Shown here one piece after another: positions 4,880 through 33,950 of a stretch of 45,089 nucleotides of DNA. The stretch's first letter is position 1, and each line of letters begins with the position of its first letter. The notes under the pieces were generated by a model. The model saw only the letters and a list, made by a program, of their open reading frames with translations, had not been told where the DNA came from and did no database searches. Made by a program: the position numbers and the translations under genes. The DNA lies in IMG/VR virus record IMGVR_UViG_3300036830_000564, positions 1 through 45,089 of that record; one strand, given 5' to 3'. The stretch is from a virus.

Positions 4880-5779
4880 TTAATCGATCACGTCCTGATC
4901 GCCGCCGAGCTCGGCCGGGTCCCGATGAATATACCGCTTGGTGGTATTGGTGTTCGAGTGACCCATCAAATCGGCGATCGTCAGAATATCCATTTTGAGC
5001 GAAGCAGCCCGCGTGCCAAAGCGGTGCCGCGCGCTGTACAAAACGCATTCGTCTGGTAAACCGGCGCGGCGGGCATACGCGCGGTGCATGGCCGACAGAC
5101 AATTCACCGTCCAGCGGCGGGACTGCGTGTTGCGGAACACGGGGCCCCAGGTGCGGCGTCCGATGGCCACCTCAAGCATCCGGCCGAACTTCTGGCCGAT
5201 CGGAATGTGCCGTTTCTTGCCGGTCTTACGGGCCGTTTTGTGCTCGGTCAGGCTGATCAGCCGCTTGTCCCAATTCACGTCCTCCACGTCCAGGCTGCAC
5301 AATTCGCCCGGGCGGCAACCGGTCTGGCACAGGGCCCGGTAAATCTGCCGGAAGGCTGGCGAGGCCACTGCGAGCAGGGCTTCGATTTGTTCCGGAGTCG
5401 GGACGAACTCGCGGCGTCCGGCGCGGGGCTTGTCGAGCTCATCGAAGATCCGGTCTTCTTTCTGGAGGACTTTGGCAGTTTTGATTGCCCAGGATTGCAA
5501 GGTTTTCAAGGCCACGACATTGTGGCCGCGGGTCGTATCGCTCCAGGGCGTGCCGTCCGGGCGCAGGCCCACGTCGTGCAAATACTCGTCGATTTCCAGG
5601 CTGGCGATTCCCGCGTCGCCCGGCTGCTCGGGGCGCAGCGCGCGGAACTCGCGGTCGCCGAAGCGGGCGACGAACCGTTTCAGTCGCTGCCCGTAGAAGC
5701 GGACCGTATTATCCGAGCGGTGCCGCTCGTTCCAGGAAAGGAATTGGGGGAGCAGGTCGCGGACGAGCATTGGGGGCAA
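4880..5779 (-). CDS. Tyrosine recombinase/integrase
   Basis: A 299-aa recombinase with a SAM-like core-binding N-terminal domain (about 1-110) and a catalytic domain (about 125-290). Catalytic residues are visible: Arg156 in GCRPGEL, Lys181 in EHKT, Arg251-His252 in YSARHRFGT (Tyr replaces the usual first His of HxxR, as in many phage integrases), His274 in LMGHS and nucleophile Tyr283 in KRYIH. It should cut and rejoin DNA by a 3'-phosphotyrosine intermediate. It lies eight bases after the stop of a tail-fibre-like gene and is apparently co-transcribed with the tail operon, which is unusual for an integrase, normally expressed early. It may integrate the element or invert or exchange fibre sequences. 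A second, partial recombinase is at 44730. Confidence 0.9.
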   Translation of the reverse strand: MPPMLVRDLLPQFLSWNERHRSDNTVRFYGQRLKRFVARFGDREFRALRPEQPGDAGIASLEIDEYLHDVGLRPDGTPWSDTTRGHNVVALKTLQSWAIKTAKVLQKEDRIFDELDKPRAGRREFVPTPEQIEALLAVASPAFRQIYRALCQTGCRPGELCSLDVEDVNWDKRLISLTEHKTARKTGKKRHIPIGQKFGRMLEVAIGRRTWGPVFRNTQSRRWTVNCLSAMHRAYARRAGLPDECVLYSARHRFGTRAASLKMDILTIADLMGHSNTNTTKRYIHRDPAELGGDQDVID

Positions 5780-17818: not shown

Positions 17819-17993
17819 CTAATGCCTGACGGGAACGCCGATCACCGCTATGGGCTCATCTTTTCCCACCCCGCGGGAGTGGAGATACAGGTCTCCTCGG
17901 GACGGTGCATACGCGGGAAGTTTTCCCGCGGCCCAGGCGACGTACTCGGCGCAGGCGGCGGGGCCGCTGTTGTGGGCGGCGGCGTTTTTTTTT
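17819..17993 (-). other. -1 frame extension after an A9 slippery tract
   Basis: In the minus-strand message the A9 run (17985-17993) gives a heptamer A AAA AAA in the correct zero frame; a -1 slip continues as KKNAAAHNSGPAAC, ends with GVPVRH and stops at 17819. The extension is about 58 residues with a conventional composition (AEYVAWAAGKLPAYAPSRGD). Programmed -1 slippage at this place is a hallmark of siphovirus tail chaperones, so this is most likely a G/GT-type pair. A simple sequencing or genuine indel in a pseudogene is the alternative. Confidence 0.55.
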
Positions 17994-18702
17994 GAGGGGA
18001 TCCCGGCCCCAGATCGCCGAGCAGCTCGGTGACTTTGGGCCAGTCGCACACGGCCTCGAACACCGAGAGATAGTTTTGCGTCGTCAGCAGCTTCAGCAGC
18101 GACGCCTCCCGCCGGCCGAGCCGGTAATTGAGCGCCAACGCCCCCACGGCCAAATCGAAGGCCTCGGGCCAGGGCAGCGTCCCCTGAAACAGATGGTCGA
18201 ACATGGTTTTCGAGGCCTGCCAGGCGGCGGCGAATTCGGGCAAAACTTCCTGCACGAATTCGCCCGCGTCGTTGAGGCCCAGCGAGCGGGGCAGCGCGGC
18301 GTAGCGGCCGCTCTTGCGGACGATGGGCACCGTCCAGACCTGGCCGTCGCCCAGGGTCACGTCATAGCCCGGGAAGACGACGGCCCTTCGGAGGTCCTCG
18401 GGCCCAGGCAGCGCGCCCACGTCGGAGCGGCCCAGCCAGTAGCGGCCGCAGTCGGTCCAATGTTGGCAGTCGGGAAAAAAACCGATCAGGGCGACCGTCG
18501 CTCCGGATGGGTCGGCCGGGGCCAGGATCACGCCGGACAGGTTCCCCGGGCCCCCGCCGATGACGTTACGGATCTGCAGACCGGACTGAAAGGCCGCCTG
18601 CGTCGTGATCAGGTCGGCGAAGATCTCCCCCAACCCGGCGTCGCGCACATGCTGGGGGCGCACCTCGGCGTACGTCAGATGGGGAATGAAATACAGGAAC
18701 AT
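17848..18702 (-). CDS. Tail assembly chaperone-like protein, zero-frame product
   Basis: A 284-aa protein from ATG 18702. Positionally it is the G/GT-like tail chaperone: it follows the tube and a small gene and precedes the tape measure. The region from about 180 (AFDLAVGALALNYRLGRREA) is helical. The zero frame after the A9 tract at 17985-17993 becomes Pro/Thr/Ala-rich and low-complexity, whereas the -1 frame continues as an ordinary sequence to a stop at 17819. I therefore infer that a longer -1 frameshift product of similar length also exists. Chaperone identity rests mostly on position and the frameshift site. Confidence 0.55.
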   Translation of the reverse strand: MFLYFIPHLTYAEVRPQHVRDAGLGEIFADLITTQAAFQSGLQIRNVIGGGPGNLSGVILAPADPSGATVALIGFFPDCQHWTDCGRYWLGRSDVGALPGPEDLRRAVVFPGYDVTLGDGQVWTVPIVRKSGRYAALPRSLGLNDAGEFVQEVLPEFAAAWQASKTMFDHLFQGTLPWPEAFDLAVGALALNYRLGRREASLLKLLTTQNYLSVFEAVCDWPKVTELLGDLGPGSPQKKTPPPTTAAPPPAPSTSPGPRENFPRMHRPEETCISTPAGWEKMSP

Positions 18703-27806: not shown

Positions 27807-28211
27807 TCAGAGCAAGAGCAGCCCGCGGAGCTGGTCGGCGAGGGCCCGCGCCTCTTTGGCATCGAACAGAATCACGCGGGGCTGGCCCGGTTCGACCGAC
27901 ACGTCTTCGCTGTCATCCAGGATTTTCACCAGGTCCTCGCACACCTGCTTGAGCGGGTCGGCGAATGAGCCCCGACGTTTCCAGGTTTCGCCGCAATCAT
28001 CGCATTTGCAGTATCGGGTTTTGCCGTCGGTCCGATACACCTTGGCCTCGTGTTTGGGGTGCTTCGGGCAGGTCGCTCCCTGGAACTTGAGCGCTTTGAA
28101 CGCGGCCCGGCGCTCCGCTCGGGCGGTATCTTCGGGCGCCGGAGCGGTATCATTTTTAGCATCGCCGGTCACGGGCTTTTCGGTCGCGGGCTTCTCGGTC
28201 TTGGTGGACAT
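27807..28211 (-). CDS. Zinc-ribbon protein next to terminase
   Basis: Start at ATG 28211 (MSTKTEKP). The 134-aa product has a charged, disordered N-terminus, a zinc ribbon with CPKHPKH (about 48-54) and CKCDDCGETW (about 68-77), and an acidic helical C-terminus (AKEARALADQLRGLLLL). The gene lies between large terminase and the gpW-like gene. It may bind DNA or assist packaging. Not a known named family. Confidence 0.6.
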   Translation of the reverse strand: MSTKTEKPATEKPVTGDAKNDTAPAPEDTARAERRAAFKALKFQGATCPKHPKHEAKVYRTDGKTRYCKCDDCGETWKRRGSFADPLKQVCEDLVKILDDSEDVSVEPGQPRVILFDAKEARALADQLRGLLLL

Positions 28212-28222
28212 GCGGGGATTCC

Positions 28223-30214
28223 TTAGCGAGAGGGGTTGAGACGGACGCGGGGGAAACGCTGTGGCGAGGCGCCGGACGGCCCAGGGAGAGCCGGGGCGCC
28301 CGAGCCGGGAGCGCGACGGGGAGCGCGGCGCGTCCGCGGCTTGGAGCCGCGCGTGGCCAGCATCAGGGCCGCGAACGCGTAACGGCGGCAATCGCGGTAA
28401 TCATTGGGGCTGTGTTCGTCGACCCGTTTCCAGCGTTCGCGGGGATTGTTGGACGTGTCGACGTCGGTCACCGGGGCGTCATTGAGCAGTTGCTCGAGGA
28501 AATCCTGATGTTCGCCCAGCGAACCGGCGAACAGCGTGGCCGCGCCGTCGTCGCCGGGTTTGAGGGTATAGAGCTGCTGATCGATCCAGTCTTGGGTTGA
28601 CTGCGTGTCAACCAGCGCGATCCGCTGGCCGGGCGACGTCGTGTTCGGGCCCAGGCGTTTGCGCGTGGCGTAGGCGTCCAGCGGCGACGAGGATCCCTTG
28701 CAGCCCAAGAGACGCTTCCGCTTGCGGCAGAAGCGATAGACGGCGGCCGGGCGATAGCCCGTGTCGAGCAGCGACAGCGACAGCCGCAGCGTCCCGCCGT
28801 CGGCGCAGGCGAAACGCCGGCTGAAGATCAGCTCGTCCAGCTCCTGCAGACTGCCGGCGGTGCCGTACGCGACCGTGTGCGAATTGAGCGTGGCGTTCCA
28901 GGCTTCGACGGCGAACACATAATGGTCTTCCTGTTTGTCCACGCCGCACGTGATCAGCGAGAAGCCGGCCGGGACGATTTCCGGCGCGGCGTCGACAATC
29001 AGCCGCTGGCCCAGCTGCTCCCAGGTCTGCTTGCGGGCCGCGTCTTCCCACGTCTGGGCGAACCATTGATTGACCATCGATCGGAGCGCCTGCTTCTTCG
29101 ACAGAGCCTCCAGAAACTTCTTGGCGAAATCGCCCCATTCGGGGATCTGCAGCGCGCACAGCGTGCTGAGCTGGTAGCTGGCCGTCTCCCCGTCGCGGAC
29201 CGCCGCACCGGTGACCCATTCGGCATGTTTCCAGCCGCGCCAGGAATATTCCCGGCGGCCTTCGGTGATCGCCAGGGCGACCTCGTCATTCACGCCGCAA
29301 CCCTCGGGGGCCCACGCGCCGCGGCGCATCATCCACAGCCGGTGCTCGCTGGCAATGCCGGCCCCGCAATGCCGGCAGACATAGCGCGCCGTCCGCCGCG
29401 CCAGCTCGGGATTGCGGCGGCCGTCGGGCGCTTCGTCCCATTTGATGCCATATTGGACTTCGCCGCCGCCGAATTCGATCACCTGATACCGCCGGCAGTG
29501 CGGGCAGGGGCAATAGTAGCTGGCGTTCCAGCCCAGGAGGCGCAGGCGTTCGATGCGCGATTTGCCTTTCACCGTGGGCGTGCCTTCGGCGATCACCTTG
29601 CGGAACATGTAATCGTCGTTGAAGCGGTCCAGAAACAGATCGAACGGATCGCCCTCGGTCGACGTCGACGAATGCTCCCATTTGTCGATTTCTGTGCCGT
29701 GCCCCACGACGGCCTTTTTGTCGGCCAGGGTCGAGGCCGATTTGGCCCAGCCCACGAACATCTTGCAGCCGGTGAATTCGACCAGGTCTTGCTTTTGCAA
29801 GCGGAGGTGGCGCGCCAGCAGCGTGCGGAGGGTCGGGCTTTTGCGTACCATCTCGTACAGCCGCTGCACCTGTTCGCGCCCCAGCTTCTCGCGCGGCGAG
29901 GCGAACATCATCGGGGCGGGATTTGTGGCCGCCGTTTTGCAGCAGCAGCATTGGCCGAAAAAGGTCTTCCCCAGGCGGACGCCCCATTGCAGGACAATCA
30001 TGCGGACGAGGTGATCGTCGAAGGCGTCCATCGGGCCGCCCGGGGCGCTGATGTGGGGATATGTCGCCCGGTCGTACGGCCGTCCCAGGTCGGTCACCAC
30101 GTTGGCCTCGGCCCACGACAGCATGCGGACCGCCGGCGGCGGCTGGAACGCCTGCCAGCACTCCGCGAAATCGCGGGTGTCGTTCAGGTCGGGGAGCTGG
30201 CAGGTGTCGAGCAT
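28223..30214 (-). CDS. Terminase large subunit (GpA type)
   Basis: Lambda GpA-type packaging motor and nuclease. I start at ATG 30214 (MLDTCQLPD), giving 663 aa; the stop of the interrupted zinc-ribbon gene overlaps it by one base (TGATG), so translation was once coupled. A longer frame to 30430 includes IS sequence. The N-terminal ATPase has a P-loop-like LQWGVRLGKT at 75-84 followed by four consecutive cysteines; then come zinc-type pairs CPCPHC and CRHCGAG (about 240-285) and the C-terminal nuclease half. The C-terminal 40 residues are Arg/Pro-rich (PRTRRAPRRAPGSGAP) and probably disordered. Confidence 0.9.
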   Translation of the reverse strand: MLDTCQLPDLNDTRDFAECWQAFQPPPAVRMLSWAEANVVTDLGRPYDRATYPHISAPGGPMDAFDDHLVRMIVLQWGVRLGKTFFGQCCCCKTAATNPAPMMFASPREKLGREQVQRLYEMVRKSPTLRTLLARHLRLQKQDLVEFTGCKMFVGWAKSASTLADKKAVVGHGTEIDKWEHSSTSTEGDPFDLFLDRFNDDYMFRKVIAEGTPTVKGKSRIERLRLLGWNASYYCPCPHCRRYQVIEFGGGEVQYGIKWDEAPDGRRNPELARRTARYVCRHCGAGIASEHRLWMMRRGAWAPEGCGVNDEVALAITEGRREYSWRGWKHAEWVTGAAVRDGETASYQLSTLCALQIPEWGDFAKKFLEALSKKQALRSMVNQWFAQTWEDAARKQTWEQLGQRLIVDAAPEIVPAGFSLITCGVDKQEDHYVFAVEAWNATLNSHTVAYGTAGSLQELDELIFSRRFACADGGTLRLSLSLLDTGYRPAAVYRFCRKRKRLLGCKGSSSPLDAYATRKRLGPNTTSPGQRIALVDTQSTQDWIDQQLYTLKPGDDGAATLFAGSLGEHQDFLEQLLNDAPVTDVDTSNNPRERWKRVDEHSPNDYRDCRRYAFAALMLATRGSKPRTRRAPRRAPGSGAPALPGPSGASPQRFPRVRLNPSR

Positions 30215-30273
30215 CAAAGGCGGGGCGCGGCTTTCGGAGCTTCGACCTGGGTCGAACCGCAGCCGGGGCATGT

Positions 30274-30281
30274 TTCGGAAT
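30274..30281. repeat. Left 8-bp target site duplication
   Basis: TTCGGAAT immediately outside the left IS end; the identical 8-mer lies outside the right end at 32208-32215. Eight-base duplication is the rule for IS1595-type transposition. Confidence 0.9.
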
Positions 30282-30305
30282 GGCACTGATATACTTAACG
30301 CAGAA
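30282..30305. repeat. IS left terminal inverted repeat (24 bp)
   Basis: Begins GGCACTGATATACTT and ends GCAGAA. Twenty of 24 bases match the reverse complement of the right end (32184-32207). Confidence 0.9.
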
Positions 30306-30340
30306 CTTTTGGAAAATTCTCGGAATTCCGGTTTATGTAC

Positions 30341-30368
30341 TTGACGCAGAATGTCCGATTGGTATAAT
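30341..30368 (+). promoter_or_regulatory. Near-consensus sigma-70 promoter of the IS passenger genes
   Basis: TTGACG at 30341-30346 and TATAAT at 30363-30368 with a 16-base spacer. It is followed by a structured leader and the GTG start at 30444. The -35 overlaps a second copy of the IS end motif (TACTTGACGCAGAA). Confidence 0.75.
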
Positions 30369-30381
30369 AAGATCATGACAC

Positions 30382-30435
30382 GCAGGAAATACCTGCAACG
30401 GCCCGGCGAAACCGGGAGTTCCTTTGGCAAAGGAG
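30382..30435 (+). promoter_or_regulatory. Three-hairpin leader occluding the ribosome-binding site
   Basis: Three adjacent hairpins: GCAGG-AAATA-CCTGC (30382-30396), CCCGG-CGAAA-CCGGG (30402-30416) and CCTTT-GGC-AAAGG (30421-30433). The third includes most of the AGGAG ribosome-binding site at 30431-30435, nine bases before GTG 30444. It could control translation of the passenger gene, as a leader RNA. Confidence 0.6.
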
Positions 30436-30443
30436 AGTGACTC

Positions 30444-30704
30444 GTGATTACTTCCGTGACTGTGAAAATCGACTACGAAAATAACGCAGAAGAGTTCTGG
30501 GCTGCGTTCGCACAAGAGTACCCGAAGCTCCGAGAGAGCGACCCAGAGACCTTTGAGGCGTGCAAAAAGATAGCTGCCGACAAGGAAGTTGAGCTTCTGG
30601 ACGCCGAGGCGATCCAGAACTTTACGACTTTCGTCGAATCGCTCCCTGGATTCACCGGCGGCCCGAAATTCGCTCCCACCGCGTTGATCTTCCAGGCCCA
30701 ATAA
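30444..30704 (+). CDS. IS passenger protein 1, unknown
   Basis: An 86-aa protein starting at GTG 30444, eight bases after an AGGAG site. It is acidic and probably helical: EEFWAAFAQEYPKLRESD, then FEACKKIAADKEVELLDAEA, with a hydrophobic Phe/Pro-rich end. No recognised domain. It has its own promoter and leader and is closed by a terminator-like RNA structure, so it is a self-contained cassette within the IS. Codon use and lower GC compared with neighbours support transfer. Confidence 0.6.
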   Translation: MITSVTVKIDYENNAEEFWAAFAQEYPKLRESDPETFEACKKIAADKEVELLDAEAIQNFTTFVESLPGFTGGPKFAPTALIFQAQ

Positions 30705-30715
30705 CCGGCACACTC

Positions 30716-30781
30716 CCCGCACCGATCCGACTCGCCAAGTCGATCCGTTGATGCCGCAAGGCGATCGGTGCGGGACTTTTT
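30716..30781 (+). terminator. Three-way-junction terminator-like RNA
   Basis: A 12-bp perfect outer stem, CCCGCACCGATC (30716-30727) with GATCGGTGCGGG (30763-30774), encloses two small hairpins: CGACT-CGCCA-AGTCG (30728-30742) and GCC-GCAA-GGC (30753-30762, a GNRA tetraloop). T5 follows at 30777-30781. This is a structured intrinsic terminator, possibly with an independent RNA role. Confidence 0.65.
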
Positions 30782-30795
30782 GCGAGGCTGAACCA

Positions 30796-31164
30796 GTGTC
30801 AGCGAATTCCATAATTGCTCGTGAGTGGTCTGCGGCTGACGATTCGCTTCTCGTGGAGAAATATCGCCGGGGTACTGTCAGTGAAATTGCGGCGACTCTT
30901 CGGAGATCGAAATCGGCTGTTCGGCAGCGAGCTGCCTTTCTTGGAATCACGCCGTACCGAAGATCGAAAAGGCGTGTCAATCTAAAAAAGGGAAGACTCT
31001 TTGGCAGCCTTAGTGTTATTTCCTTTGCTGGAATCAACGCAAGGACGGAGGCAACCTGGAATTGTAAGTGTGTCTGCGGTGAAACAGTTGTTAGAAGCTC
31101 CACTAAATTATTGCGCGGCAAAGTAATCAGTTGCGGCTGCGCCAGGAAAGGCAGAAAAAAGTGA
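30796..31164 (+). CDS. IS passenger protein 2: HTH and cysteine-cluster DNA-binding protein
   Basis: I prefer GTG 30796 over ATG 30748 because the latter falls inside the terminator structure. The 122-aa product has a Myb/SANT-like helix-turn-helix (WSAADDSLLVEKYRRGTVSE, then IAATLRRSKSAVRQRAAFLG) and a C-terminal Cys cluster (WNCKCVCGETVV, then ISCGCARK) resembling small modules found in phage DNA-binding and homing-related proteins. It overlaps the transposase start GTG 31161 by four bases, so it is translated in step with it. It may help target or regulate transposition. Confidence 0.65.
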   Translation: MSANSIIAREWSAADDSLLVEKYRRGTVSEIAATLRRSKSAVRQRAAFLGITPYRRSKRRVNLKKGRLFGSLSVISFAGINARTEATWNCKCVCGETVVRSSTKLLRGKVISCGCARKGRKK

Positions 31165-32003
31165 TCGATGAGGTCCCGCAAACACTGATCTATGCCGTCC
31201 AGTATTTCGCCGATCTGGACCGTTGCAACGAATTCATGGCCGAGGTCAAGTGGCAGTCCGGCAAGATCACTTGTCCTCACTGCGGCGGCGAGAGCGTTTC
31301 GCCGGTCAAAGGCCGTCCGAAGTTGCAATGCAATTCCGGCGCGTGTCGCAAACAGTTTTCGTACAAGACGGGAACTATCTTTGAGGATTCGCCGCTCCCG
31401 TTGTCGAAATGGTTCGTCGCAGTTTGGTTCGTCGTCAACTGCAAAAACGGAATCAGCAGTCATGAGATGCACCGTGCGATCGGAGTGACTCAAAAGACAG
31501 GCTGGTTTATGTGCCACCGGATTCGGAAGGCTCTCGAATCCGGCTCGTTTGCGAAGCTGGCCGGAGAGGTTGAGAGCGATGAAACTTTCGTTGGCGGGGC
31601 CGCGAAGAACATGCACCGCGCCAGGCGCGAAGCGAAGATCAAAGGCCGCGGCAGTGTCGGGAAGCAGCCAGTGCATGGCATTCTGGAACGCGGCGGAATG
31701 GTCGGTGCGTACATCCACCACGCGGTTGACCACGGAGCCGGCGAATATGTTCGCGGCCCAGCGCACACGAACGGCTTGGAGAATTTCTGGTCGCTGCTCA
31801 ATCGAGCCCTCAAGGGGACTTGGACACATGTCGAGCCGTTCCATCTGCACCGCTATACGACCGAGCAGGGCTTCCGCTATAACCACCGAGATCTCAATGA
31901 TGCTCTGCGGTTCCTGCTCGCGTTGCGGGGCGTTCTCGGAAAGCGTCTGACTTACCGCCGCTTGTGCGCAATCGGCGACAGCGGATTCATGGGTCTCAAG
32001 TAA
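31161..32003 (+). CDS. ISXO2-like transposase with missing catalytic segment
   Basis: Start by GTG 31161 (VIDEVPQ), with the upstream stop overlapping by four bases (GTGA); an ATG-like start at 31131 is less likely. Numbering from 31131, zinc-ribbon-like CPHCGG at 48-53 is followed by the first catalytic D150 in EVESDETFVGG and the final cluster HTNGLENFW at 212-220. Family proteins have about 40 residues between GGMV and YIHHAVDH that contain the second Asp (the TD...Y region); here GGMVG runs straight into AYIHHAVDHG. I infer an in-frame deletion and loss of transposition activity. Comparison is from memory of family patterns. Confidence 0.85.
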   Translation: MIDEVPQTLIYAVQYFADLDRCNEFMAEVKWQSGKITCPHCGGESVSPVKGRPKLQCNSGACRKQFSYKTGTIFEDSPLPLSKWFVAVWFVVNCKNGISSHEMHRAIGVTQKTGWFMCHRIRKALESGSFAKLAGEVESDETFVGGAAKNMHRARREAKIKGRGSVGKQPVHGILERGGMVGAYIHHAVDHGAGEYVRGPAHTNGLENFWSLLNRALKGTWTHVEPFHLHRYTTEQGFRYNHRDLNDALRFLLALRGVLGKRLTYRRLCAIGDSGFMGLK

Positions 32004-32016
32004 AAGGATTGCGAGC

Positions 32017-32148
32017 ATGGCCAAGGAAACGCCAGCGCCGAAAGGCATCAGGAATTTCAAGGACGCACTACGGAAAATCGTGCAAGTGCCGAAAGCCGAA
32101 GTCGACCGGCTAATCGCTGACAGCAAACGCAAGCGGCGCAAGAAGTAA
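32017..32148 (+). CDS. Short basic ORF of the IS
   Basis: A 43-aa ATG-started ORF 13 bases after the transposase stop: MAKETPAPKGIRNFKDALRK, ending SKRKRRKK. It is highly basic with one amphipathic helix. Small basic proteins are seen next to IS1595-type transposases and might assist transposition; no specific evidence here. Confidence 0.55.
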   Translation: MAKETPAPKGIRNFKDALRKIVQVPKAEVDRLIADSKRKRRKK

Positions 32149-32183
32149 GTGACGAGTTGCATTTTTTATTCCGTCAATTTCCG

Positions 32184-32207
32184 TTCTGCTTCAAGTATGT
32201 CAGTACC
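32184..32207. repeat. IS right terminal inverted repeat (24 bp)
   Basis: Reverse complement begins GGTACTGACATACTT; 20 of 24 positions match the left end. Confidence 0.9.
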
Positions 32208-32215
32208 TTCGGAAT
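32208..32215. repeat. Right 8-bp target site duplication
   Basis: TTCGGAAT, identical to 30274-30281. Confidence 0.9.
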
Positions 32216-32355
32216 ACGGGGAACGCAGCCGCCGTCCGCAATGGGCGCATTGGATCGCGGCGGGACGCAGCGGGATGATGTTGAAATGGGGCGGCAAGGC
32301 GATGAATCGGCCCGGGAGGAACTTCTCGGGAGGGGGCGGCGGCGACGTCGGCCGG

Positions 32356-33069
32356 TCACTTCGCAGCGTCGCCGGCGGGGGCGGCGGATTGAATCCCATG
32401 AGAGGGCTCCGGTTGATCGGGAGAAATTTCGGCGTCGAATCGCCAGTTGGCGAGCGAGGTGAGCAAGAGCTGGATCCGGCTCCGCGCGTCGAACAAAAAG
32501 TCGGCACGGCTGGCCGCGGGGACGGCCGAGGCGAGCACCTCGGGCAGCGGCTGCAGTTGGCCGCGGAGGCGATGAAACAGTTGCCGGACGGCCGTTTTGG
32601 CCGCGTCGCGCGACACGAGCTCGCCCGATTCGTTCCGCAGCTTGAGCAGCAGCCGGGCGTTGTCGATCTCGAGGTGGATTTCTTCCTTCGCCGCTTTCCC
32701 GCCGGCAGGCCGGGCCAGGAACTGCAGCTTGGCGAACCGCCAGCGGACGATTTCGGGCAGCGGATAGGCGCCTTCCGCTCCCGGCATCGGATCGGGCCCC
32801 GTGCGCCATTCTTTGACCGTTTGCAATTGCACGCCCAGGAACGCGGCGACTTCGCCGAGCGTTCCGGCGGTCCATTTTGTCGCGGGGCCGTTCGGGCCGG
32901 GAGGGCCGGCGGCCAGGAGCAAGTCGAGGTCGGCAAGGTCAGCCTCCGTCGCCTGTTGGAGCCAACCTCGCAAGGTAAGCCTGGCGGCGGTCTTCGAAGC
33001 TGTGCCGGTGCTCGTGGAGGTGCGTTTGCGGCGGCTGCGCCGCGTGGTCGGCCGTTTGGTTTTGCGCAT
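32356..33069 (-). CDS. Terminase small subunit (Nu1-like)
   Basis: A 237-aa protein. Residues about 68-110 carry a winged-HTH pattern like lambda Nu1: GTLGEVAAFLGVQLQTVKEW, then PLPEIVRWRFAKLQF. A long helical middle (KAAKEEIHLEIDNARLLLKL) may dimerise. It recognises the packaging start site and hands DNA to the large subunit. The N-terminus is Arg/Lys-rich. Its ORF overlaps the upstream gene by 131 bases, so the real start may be later. The IS lies just downstream. Confidence 0.75.
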   Translation of the reverse strand: MRKTKRPTTRRSRRKRTSTSTGTASKTAARLTLRGWLQQATEADLADLDLLLAAGPPGPNGPATKWTAGTLGEVAAFLGVQLQTVKEWRTGPDPMPGAEGAYPLPEIVRWRFAKLQFLARPAGGKAAKEEIHLEIDNARLLLKLRNESGELVSRDAAKTAVRQLFHRLRGQLQPLPEVLASAVPAASRADFLFDARSRIQLLLTSLANWRFDAEISPDQPEPSHGIQSAAPAGDAAK

Positions 33070-33338: not shown

Positions 33339-33950
33339 TCACACGGTCAGGGCGCGGCACTCGTAACCCTCCGCGGACATTCTCGCGAGCAGCGTCCGCT
33401 GCGCGTCCTCGTCGGCGACGGTAATCAGCACCTGGTATCGTTTCGCGACGGGCGGCTGCGATTCTTCCGCGGCGGCTTGCTCCGCGGCTTCGGCCTCGGA
33501 CAGACCTTCGACGATCTCGAACTCTGCGCAAAGATCGGCGTGCATCTGCTGCAGCATTTCATCGCCGACCTCGACCATCGGCATCAATTGGCGCAGCGCC
33601 TCGACGTCCCATTCGGCCAGCTCGGCCGTGCGATTGTCGGCGATTGCAAAGCCGACGGCGGAAATGTCGTCGTCGTCGACCTGGAGGCAGGCCAGGTGCG
33701 TCCAGCCCAGGGCGATCGCGGCCTGGAGCATCCCGTTTCCCGCCCGCACGATCATCCCCTTCTTCTGGACGACCGCCGCGCGTCTCTGTCCATACTGCAC
33801 GAGGCTCCCGCGGATCGCCTGCAGGTTCGCCTGCGAATGCTTCCGCGCATTGGCGGGATCCGCAACGAGTTCGCCGATCGGAACGGCCATCGCCCGCAGC
33901 GATTCGTGGATGTACGACAGGTCTGGTAAGCCTTTGCCGCGCTTTGCCAT
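33339..33950 (-). CDS. ParB/sulfiredoxin-fold protein
   Basis: A 203-aa protein with a ParB N-terminal-type domain: VPIGELVADPANARKHSQAN (25-44), then VQKKGMIVRAGNGMLQAAIALG (the G-N-x-M-L-x-A variant of GHxRLxA) and IADNRTAELAEWD. Phages often encode such proteins just upstream of terminase, with roles in DNA binding or modification. A helical Ala/Glu stretch (EGLSEAEAAEQAAAEES) joins a final small domain (RYQVLITVADEDAQRTLLA). The catalytic chemistry is unknown. Confidence 0.75.
   Translation of the reverse strand: MAKRGKGLPDLSYIHESLRAMAVPIGELVADPANARKHSQANLQAIRGSLVQYGQRRAAVVQKKGMIVRAGNGMLQAAIALGWTHLACLQVDDDDISAVGFAIADNRTAELAEWDVEALRQLMPMVEVGDEMLQQMHADLCAEFEIVEGLSEAEAAEQAAAEESQPPVAKRYQVLITVADEDAQRTLLARMSAEGYECRALTV

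Follow-up and report, generated by a model that had tools for sequence, protein, structure and literature searches.

Packaging region and the element within it

The window, that is, the whole stretch of DNA analysed, is IMG/VR virus record IMGVR_UViG_3300036830_000564 (45,089 bp), a single metagenome-derived record and the only sequence in our data that carries the insertion described here (n = 1). Its packaging genes are all encoded by the minus strand, in the order terS, terL, small genes, portal, and protease-capsid protein (Table 1). Both the run terS-terL-small genes-portal and the intact GpA ATPase and nuclease domains of TerL are shared with the GpA-type terminase modules (PF05876/PF20454, PHROG 15) of temperate tailed phages. 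By TerL, the nearest relative is L002 (69% identical), which belongs to one and the same contig as L007, and the alignment with L002 backs ATG 30214 as the TerL start. A temperate life style is supported by an integrase gene at 4880-5770, and the host is probably a planctomycete, as suggested by the one locus that bears on it, a Planctomycetales MAG (L008) whose large subunit is 51% identical to the window TerL.

Table 1. Coordinates of the terminase genes, the inserted element, and the two parts of the split reading frame in the window.
Feature	Coordinates	Strand	Basis or remark
Terminase large subunit (TerL), GpA type, 663 aa, intact	28223..30214	-	GpA ATPase + nuclease domains
3' part of split ORF	30214..30273	-	19 codons with CPGC, then TGA
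Target duplication TTCGGAAT, left copy, 8 bp	30274..30281		perfect repeat
IS1595-family insertion element with passenger genes, 1,926 bp	30282..32207	+	inverted ends, 8-bp duplication, IS1595 transposase models
Inward sigma-70-like promoter of element, TTGACG-16-TATAAT	30341..30368	+	consensus match only
Passenger ORF, 86 aa	30444..30704	+	no family match
Passenger ORF, 138 aa	30748..31164	+	PHROG 374, E 7.6e-16
IS1595 transposase with zinc ribbon	31131..32003	+	PF12762, PF12760, NF033547
Target duplication TTCGGAAT, right copy, 8 bp	32208..32215		perfect repeat
5' part of split ORF	32216..32399	-	ATG 32399; codons 1-64 including shared repeat; has CAHC
Terminase small subunit (terS)	32356..33069	-	PHROG 57, E 1.5e-08; 65% identity to L007

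The earlier note had placed an IS inside a zinc-ribbon gene at 30214-32399, and these coordinates proved correct to the base. An exact duplication of TTCGGAAT flanks the element, whose terminal inverted repeats, GGCACTGATATACTTAACGCAGAAC at the start and the inverted copy GGTACTGACATACTTGAAGCAGAAC at the end, are identical at 21 of 25 positions. When both strands of the 45-kb window are counted, TTCGGAAT occurs three times, two of these being exactly at the element ends. The element is oriented antisense to the packaging operon and shares with the IS1595 family (ISXO2-like DDE transposase with an N-terminal zinc ribbon) the transposase and zinc-ribbon domains, ends that begin with GG, the 8-bp target duplication, and a single transposase gene. 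Target duplications of this length are the norm for the family (PMC8101967; PMC12561309). Moreover, five related elements of 2.0-2.45 kb (L128, L147, L149, L150, and L151), which come from other viral contigs and one planctomycete genome, each have an exact 8-bp duplication of their own.

In the transposase, the DDE_Tnp_IS1595 domain (PF12762, E 7.8e-22) and the N-terminal zinc ribbon (PF12760, E 3.4e-08) were both recognised over cut-off, and NF033547 scored 134.8 bits against a cut-off of 75. Relative to L151 (66% identical), and also to L147, L149, and L150, the window transposase is missing 39 codons in frame, and the missing segment is the one in which relatives have their second catalytic Asp, as part of a YTD motif. 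The catalytic triad is incomplete, which concerns the activity of the enzyme and not its membership by descent. Since the domains, the ends, and the duplication are all those of the family, we regard the element as a defective copy of an IS1595 member, and one that the loss of 39 codons, among them the catalytic Asp, has probably deprived of autonomous mobility.

Passengers are known from ISNha5-type members of the IS1595 family. Here, it is the passenger ORFs that make the element longer than a simple IS, and those ahead of the transposase vary among the related elements. In the window, the 138-aa passenger product has an HTH-like start and a C-terminus resembling phage HNH-endonuclease proteins. 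Past the transposase, though still inside the element, a 43-aa basic ORF is found at 32017-32148 (+), with counterparts in L128, L150, and L151.

The split reading frame and its coding potential

When the two flanks are joined with one copy of TTCGGAAT, a minus-strand ORF of 83 codons runs from ATG 32399 to a TGA at the TerL ATG, with 64 codons before the junction and 19 after it, and the joined frame ends ...QCAHCGRRLRSPYSE-TCPGCGSTQVEAPKAAPRL. The earlier note had described this rebuild as exact and in frame, with two CxxC pairs restored and a stop overlapping the terminase start, and in each of these particulars it was right. CAHC and CPGC are both present in the joined-site ORF, and the overlap with the TerL start is 1 nt (TGATG, in which the A is shared). 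At its other end, the ORF overlaps the end of terS by 44 nt, and the distance from terS to terL in the joined site is 207 nt. The CxxC-x12-CxxC spacing is that of the Double zinc ribbon (PF12773) and similar small ribbons, and there is a weak profile match, but the score stays below the curated cut-off (20.4 versus 27.3 bits; DZR E 5.9e-4), and membership of the family is not claimed.

Removing any IS from inside an ORF restores that ORF, and the openness of this one is unremarkable, as 37% of random 83-codon windows in this sequence are free of stops. Such a figure would suit a different reading, in which the 83 codons are open by chance and the IS merely happened to hit a spacer between terS and terL that is non-coding or decayed. 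The codon score, which is borderline at 0.10 bits per codon (median 0.56 for true phage genes and -0.47 for wrong frames), would suit it as well, this value being reached by 7% of wrong-frame windows, while 9% of true coding windows are as low. That score, however, is the highest among the six frames. Moreover, among random stop-free windows here, about 0.3% contain the pattern C..C-x(6-20)-C..C, and shuffling the residues of the 83-aa protein gives the four-cysteine pattern in 0.05% of cases. In addition, GGAG stands at a proper spacing, 7 nt upstream of the ATG, and the ORF overlaps terS and terL both. Taken together, these features make a chance frame unlikely in our view, and we consider the 83-aa ORF to be, with good probability, a real gene, an estimate reached by judgement rather than computed.

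What the chance-frame reading also has on its side is that our searches for the protein in IMG/VR and INPHARED, and those with junction patterns, returned no homologue. A pattern search of IMG/VR gave 49 matches with no relative of the 83-aa protein among them, and INPHARED, at E up to 10, gave two chance-level matches only and no intact 83-aa homologue. Neither the exact empty-site junction nor the degenerate CAHCGRRLRSPY pattern was found in IMG/VR. Across 392 planctomycete genomes, there were five weak partial matches, at 35-45% identity. Literature searches for terminase genes separated by a zinc-ribbon gene, and for the terminases of planctomycete phages, found nothing pertinent.

Predicted effect of the insertion on terL

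Before the insertion, the ribbon ORF would have been expressed together with terS and terL through the overlapping stop-start signals. The 2-kb IS1595-family element, with its passengers, would then have landed in the ribbon gene, antisense to the packaging operon, and cut its frame after codon 64. In the present sequence, the 5' part reads 13 codons into the element and reaches a stop at 32166, and the predicted product would keep the first CxxC alone; because of this truncation, the four-cysteine zinc site could not form. About 1.9 kb of opposite-strand DNA now stands ahead of terL, between it and terS, and translation of TerL would have to begin without a coupled upstream ORF, which should make it lower, though not necessarily abolish it. 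A loss of translational coupling for TerL is plausible on these grounds, and a reduced expression of TerL likely.

A variant of this account, which differs in the effect on TerL only, holds that the insertion is neutral for packaging, with TerL made from a start or a promoter in the element end. Here, we noticed that the TerL frame is open into the element, where ATG 30376 and TTG 30430 are possible alternative starts. However, our promoter scan detected no outward minus-strand promoter at the element end, the inward one being the only one that it found, and the TerL start backed by homology is the ATG at 30214. We regard a neutral insertion as rather improbable.

The terS-terL junction in related phages

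Altogether, there were 41 distinct relatives in which both terminase genes could be placed, and in 36 of these terS and terL are adjacent or overlapping, most commonly by 4 nt. In the nearest relative, L002, the gap between them is 12 nt. Relatives lacking the ribbon, or having a different junction, had been named in the earlier note as what would speak against its proposal, and L002 and most of the others are of this kind. Likewise, the search that it had called for, namely of related phages for an intact 83-aa zinc-ribbon ORF, came back empty from about 90 loci, IMG/VR, and INPHARED alike. That the ribbon might be a frameshifted TerS tail was rejected, as L002 TerS has its own unrelated tail, with TerL following 12 nt on.

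The remaining five relatives have other DNA between the two genes: GIY-YIG homing endonucleases in L073 (1807-2526) and L088 (about 1275-2000), a DNA methyltransferase in L008 (4740-5966), and uncharacterised ORFs in L024 and L028. In this group of phages, the terS-terL junction looks like a recurrent site for cargo. Were the ribbon gene a conserved intergenic one, related phages should carry its orthologue in the corresponding position, and none was seen. Rather, the zinc-ribbon gene is likely accessory and lineage-specific, and not a conserved part of packaging. Before the IS, the window differed from its relatives, whose terminase genes are mostly adjacent or overlapping, in having an extra 207 nt and an ORF between terS and terL. 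Because of this difference, the simplest history, by parsimony only, would be that a small cargo gene was gained in this lineage and that the IS came afterwards. The description of the gene as ancestral in the earlier note thus stands in the sense of its presence before the IS, though not in the sense of an old or conserved gene of the group.

Among the roughly 90 loci with enough upstream sequence, none has an equivalent ORF before TerL, and a four-cysteine frame lies immediately ahead of TerL in three (L101, L112, and L099). Those in L101 and L112 were taken as chance frames by appearance alone. In L099 (263-1402), from a planctomycete genome, the frame belongs to a protein of 379 aa that has its four-Cys ribbon at the C-terminus, shows a weak AP2-like stretch, and is located directly ahead of a distant GpA-type TerL; as an equivalent it was set aside, for, the ribbon apart, neither its length nor its domains relate it to the 83-aa protein.

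This L099 protein of a distant planctomycete phage locus, along with the way in which the 83-codon ORF is tiled between terS and terL, might be taken to mean that the group's packaging module has long had the zinc-ribbon gene as a functional part, which the sampled relatives have since lost. Such a history, however, would require that the nearest relative and every other one with adjacent terminase genes had lost it, and the L099 protein, as said, matches in neither length nor domains. We consider it very improbable. Scarcely credible, to our minds, is the further proposal that the zinc-ribbon protein is a third, translationally coupled packaging component in a planctomycete-phage lineage, whose loss here marks a packaging-defective prophage.

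The reading that we prefer, to which we assign a probability of roughly 0.7, is that an IS1595-family element broke an accessory zinc-ribbon gene which a temperate, probably planctomycete, phage had recently acquired between its terS and terL. In this lineage, the small accessory gene would have entered between the two terminase genes earlier than the element did. What the locus offers is a clean case of a pre-insertion gene read from a target duplication, and a terS-terL junction that hosts, across the group, unrelated cargo in the form of homing endonucleases, a methyltransferase, and a zinc ribbon. It is otherwise ordinary, a defective IS1595 copy inside an accessory gene.

Elsewhere in the window, a separate gene for a small four-Cys protein is present directly past terL, at 27807-28211 (-). 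In contrast to the split ribbon gene ahead of terL, this one is matched by a gene in the corresponding position of L002 (5877-6260). Ahead of the terminase genes, a ParB-like protein of 203 aa is encoded at 33339-33950 (-). Its L002 counterpart has the same start and is 460 aa long, continuing into an apparent DNA methyltransferase, and the window protein may be a trimmed form of the L002 version. Finally, ARAGORN called a tRNA-His of 84 nt at 17936-18019 (+), a possible false positive that is antisense to an ORF at 17848-18702.
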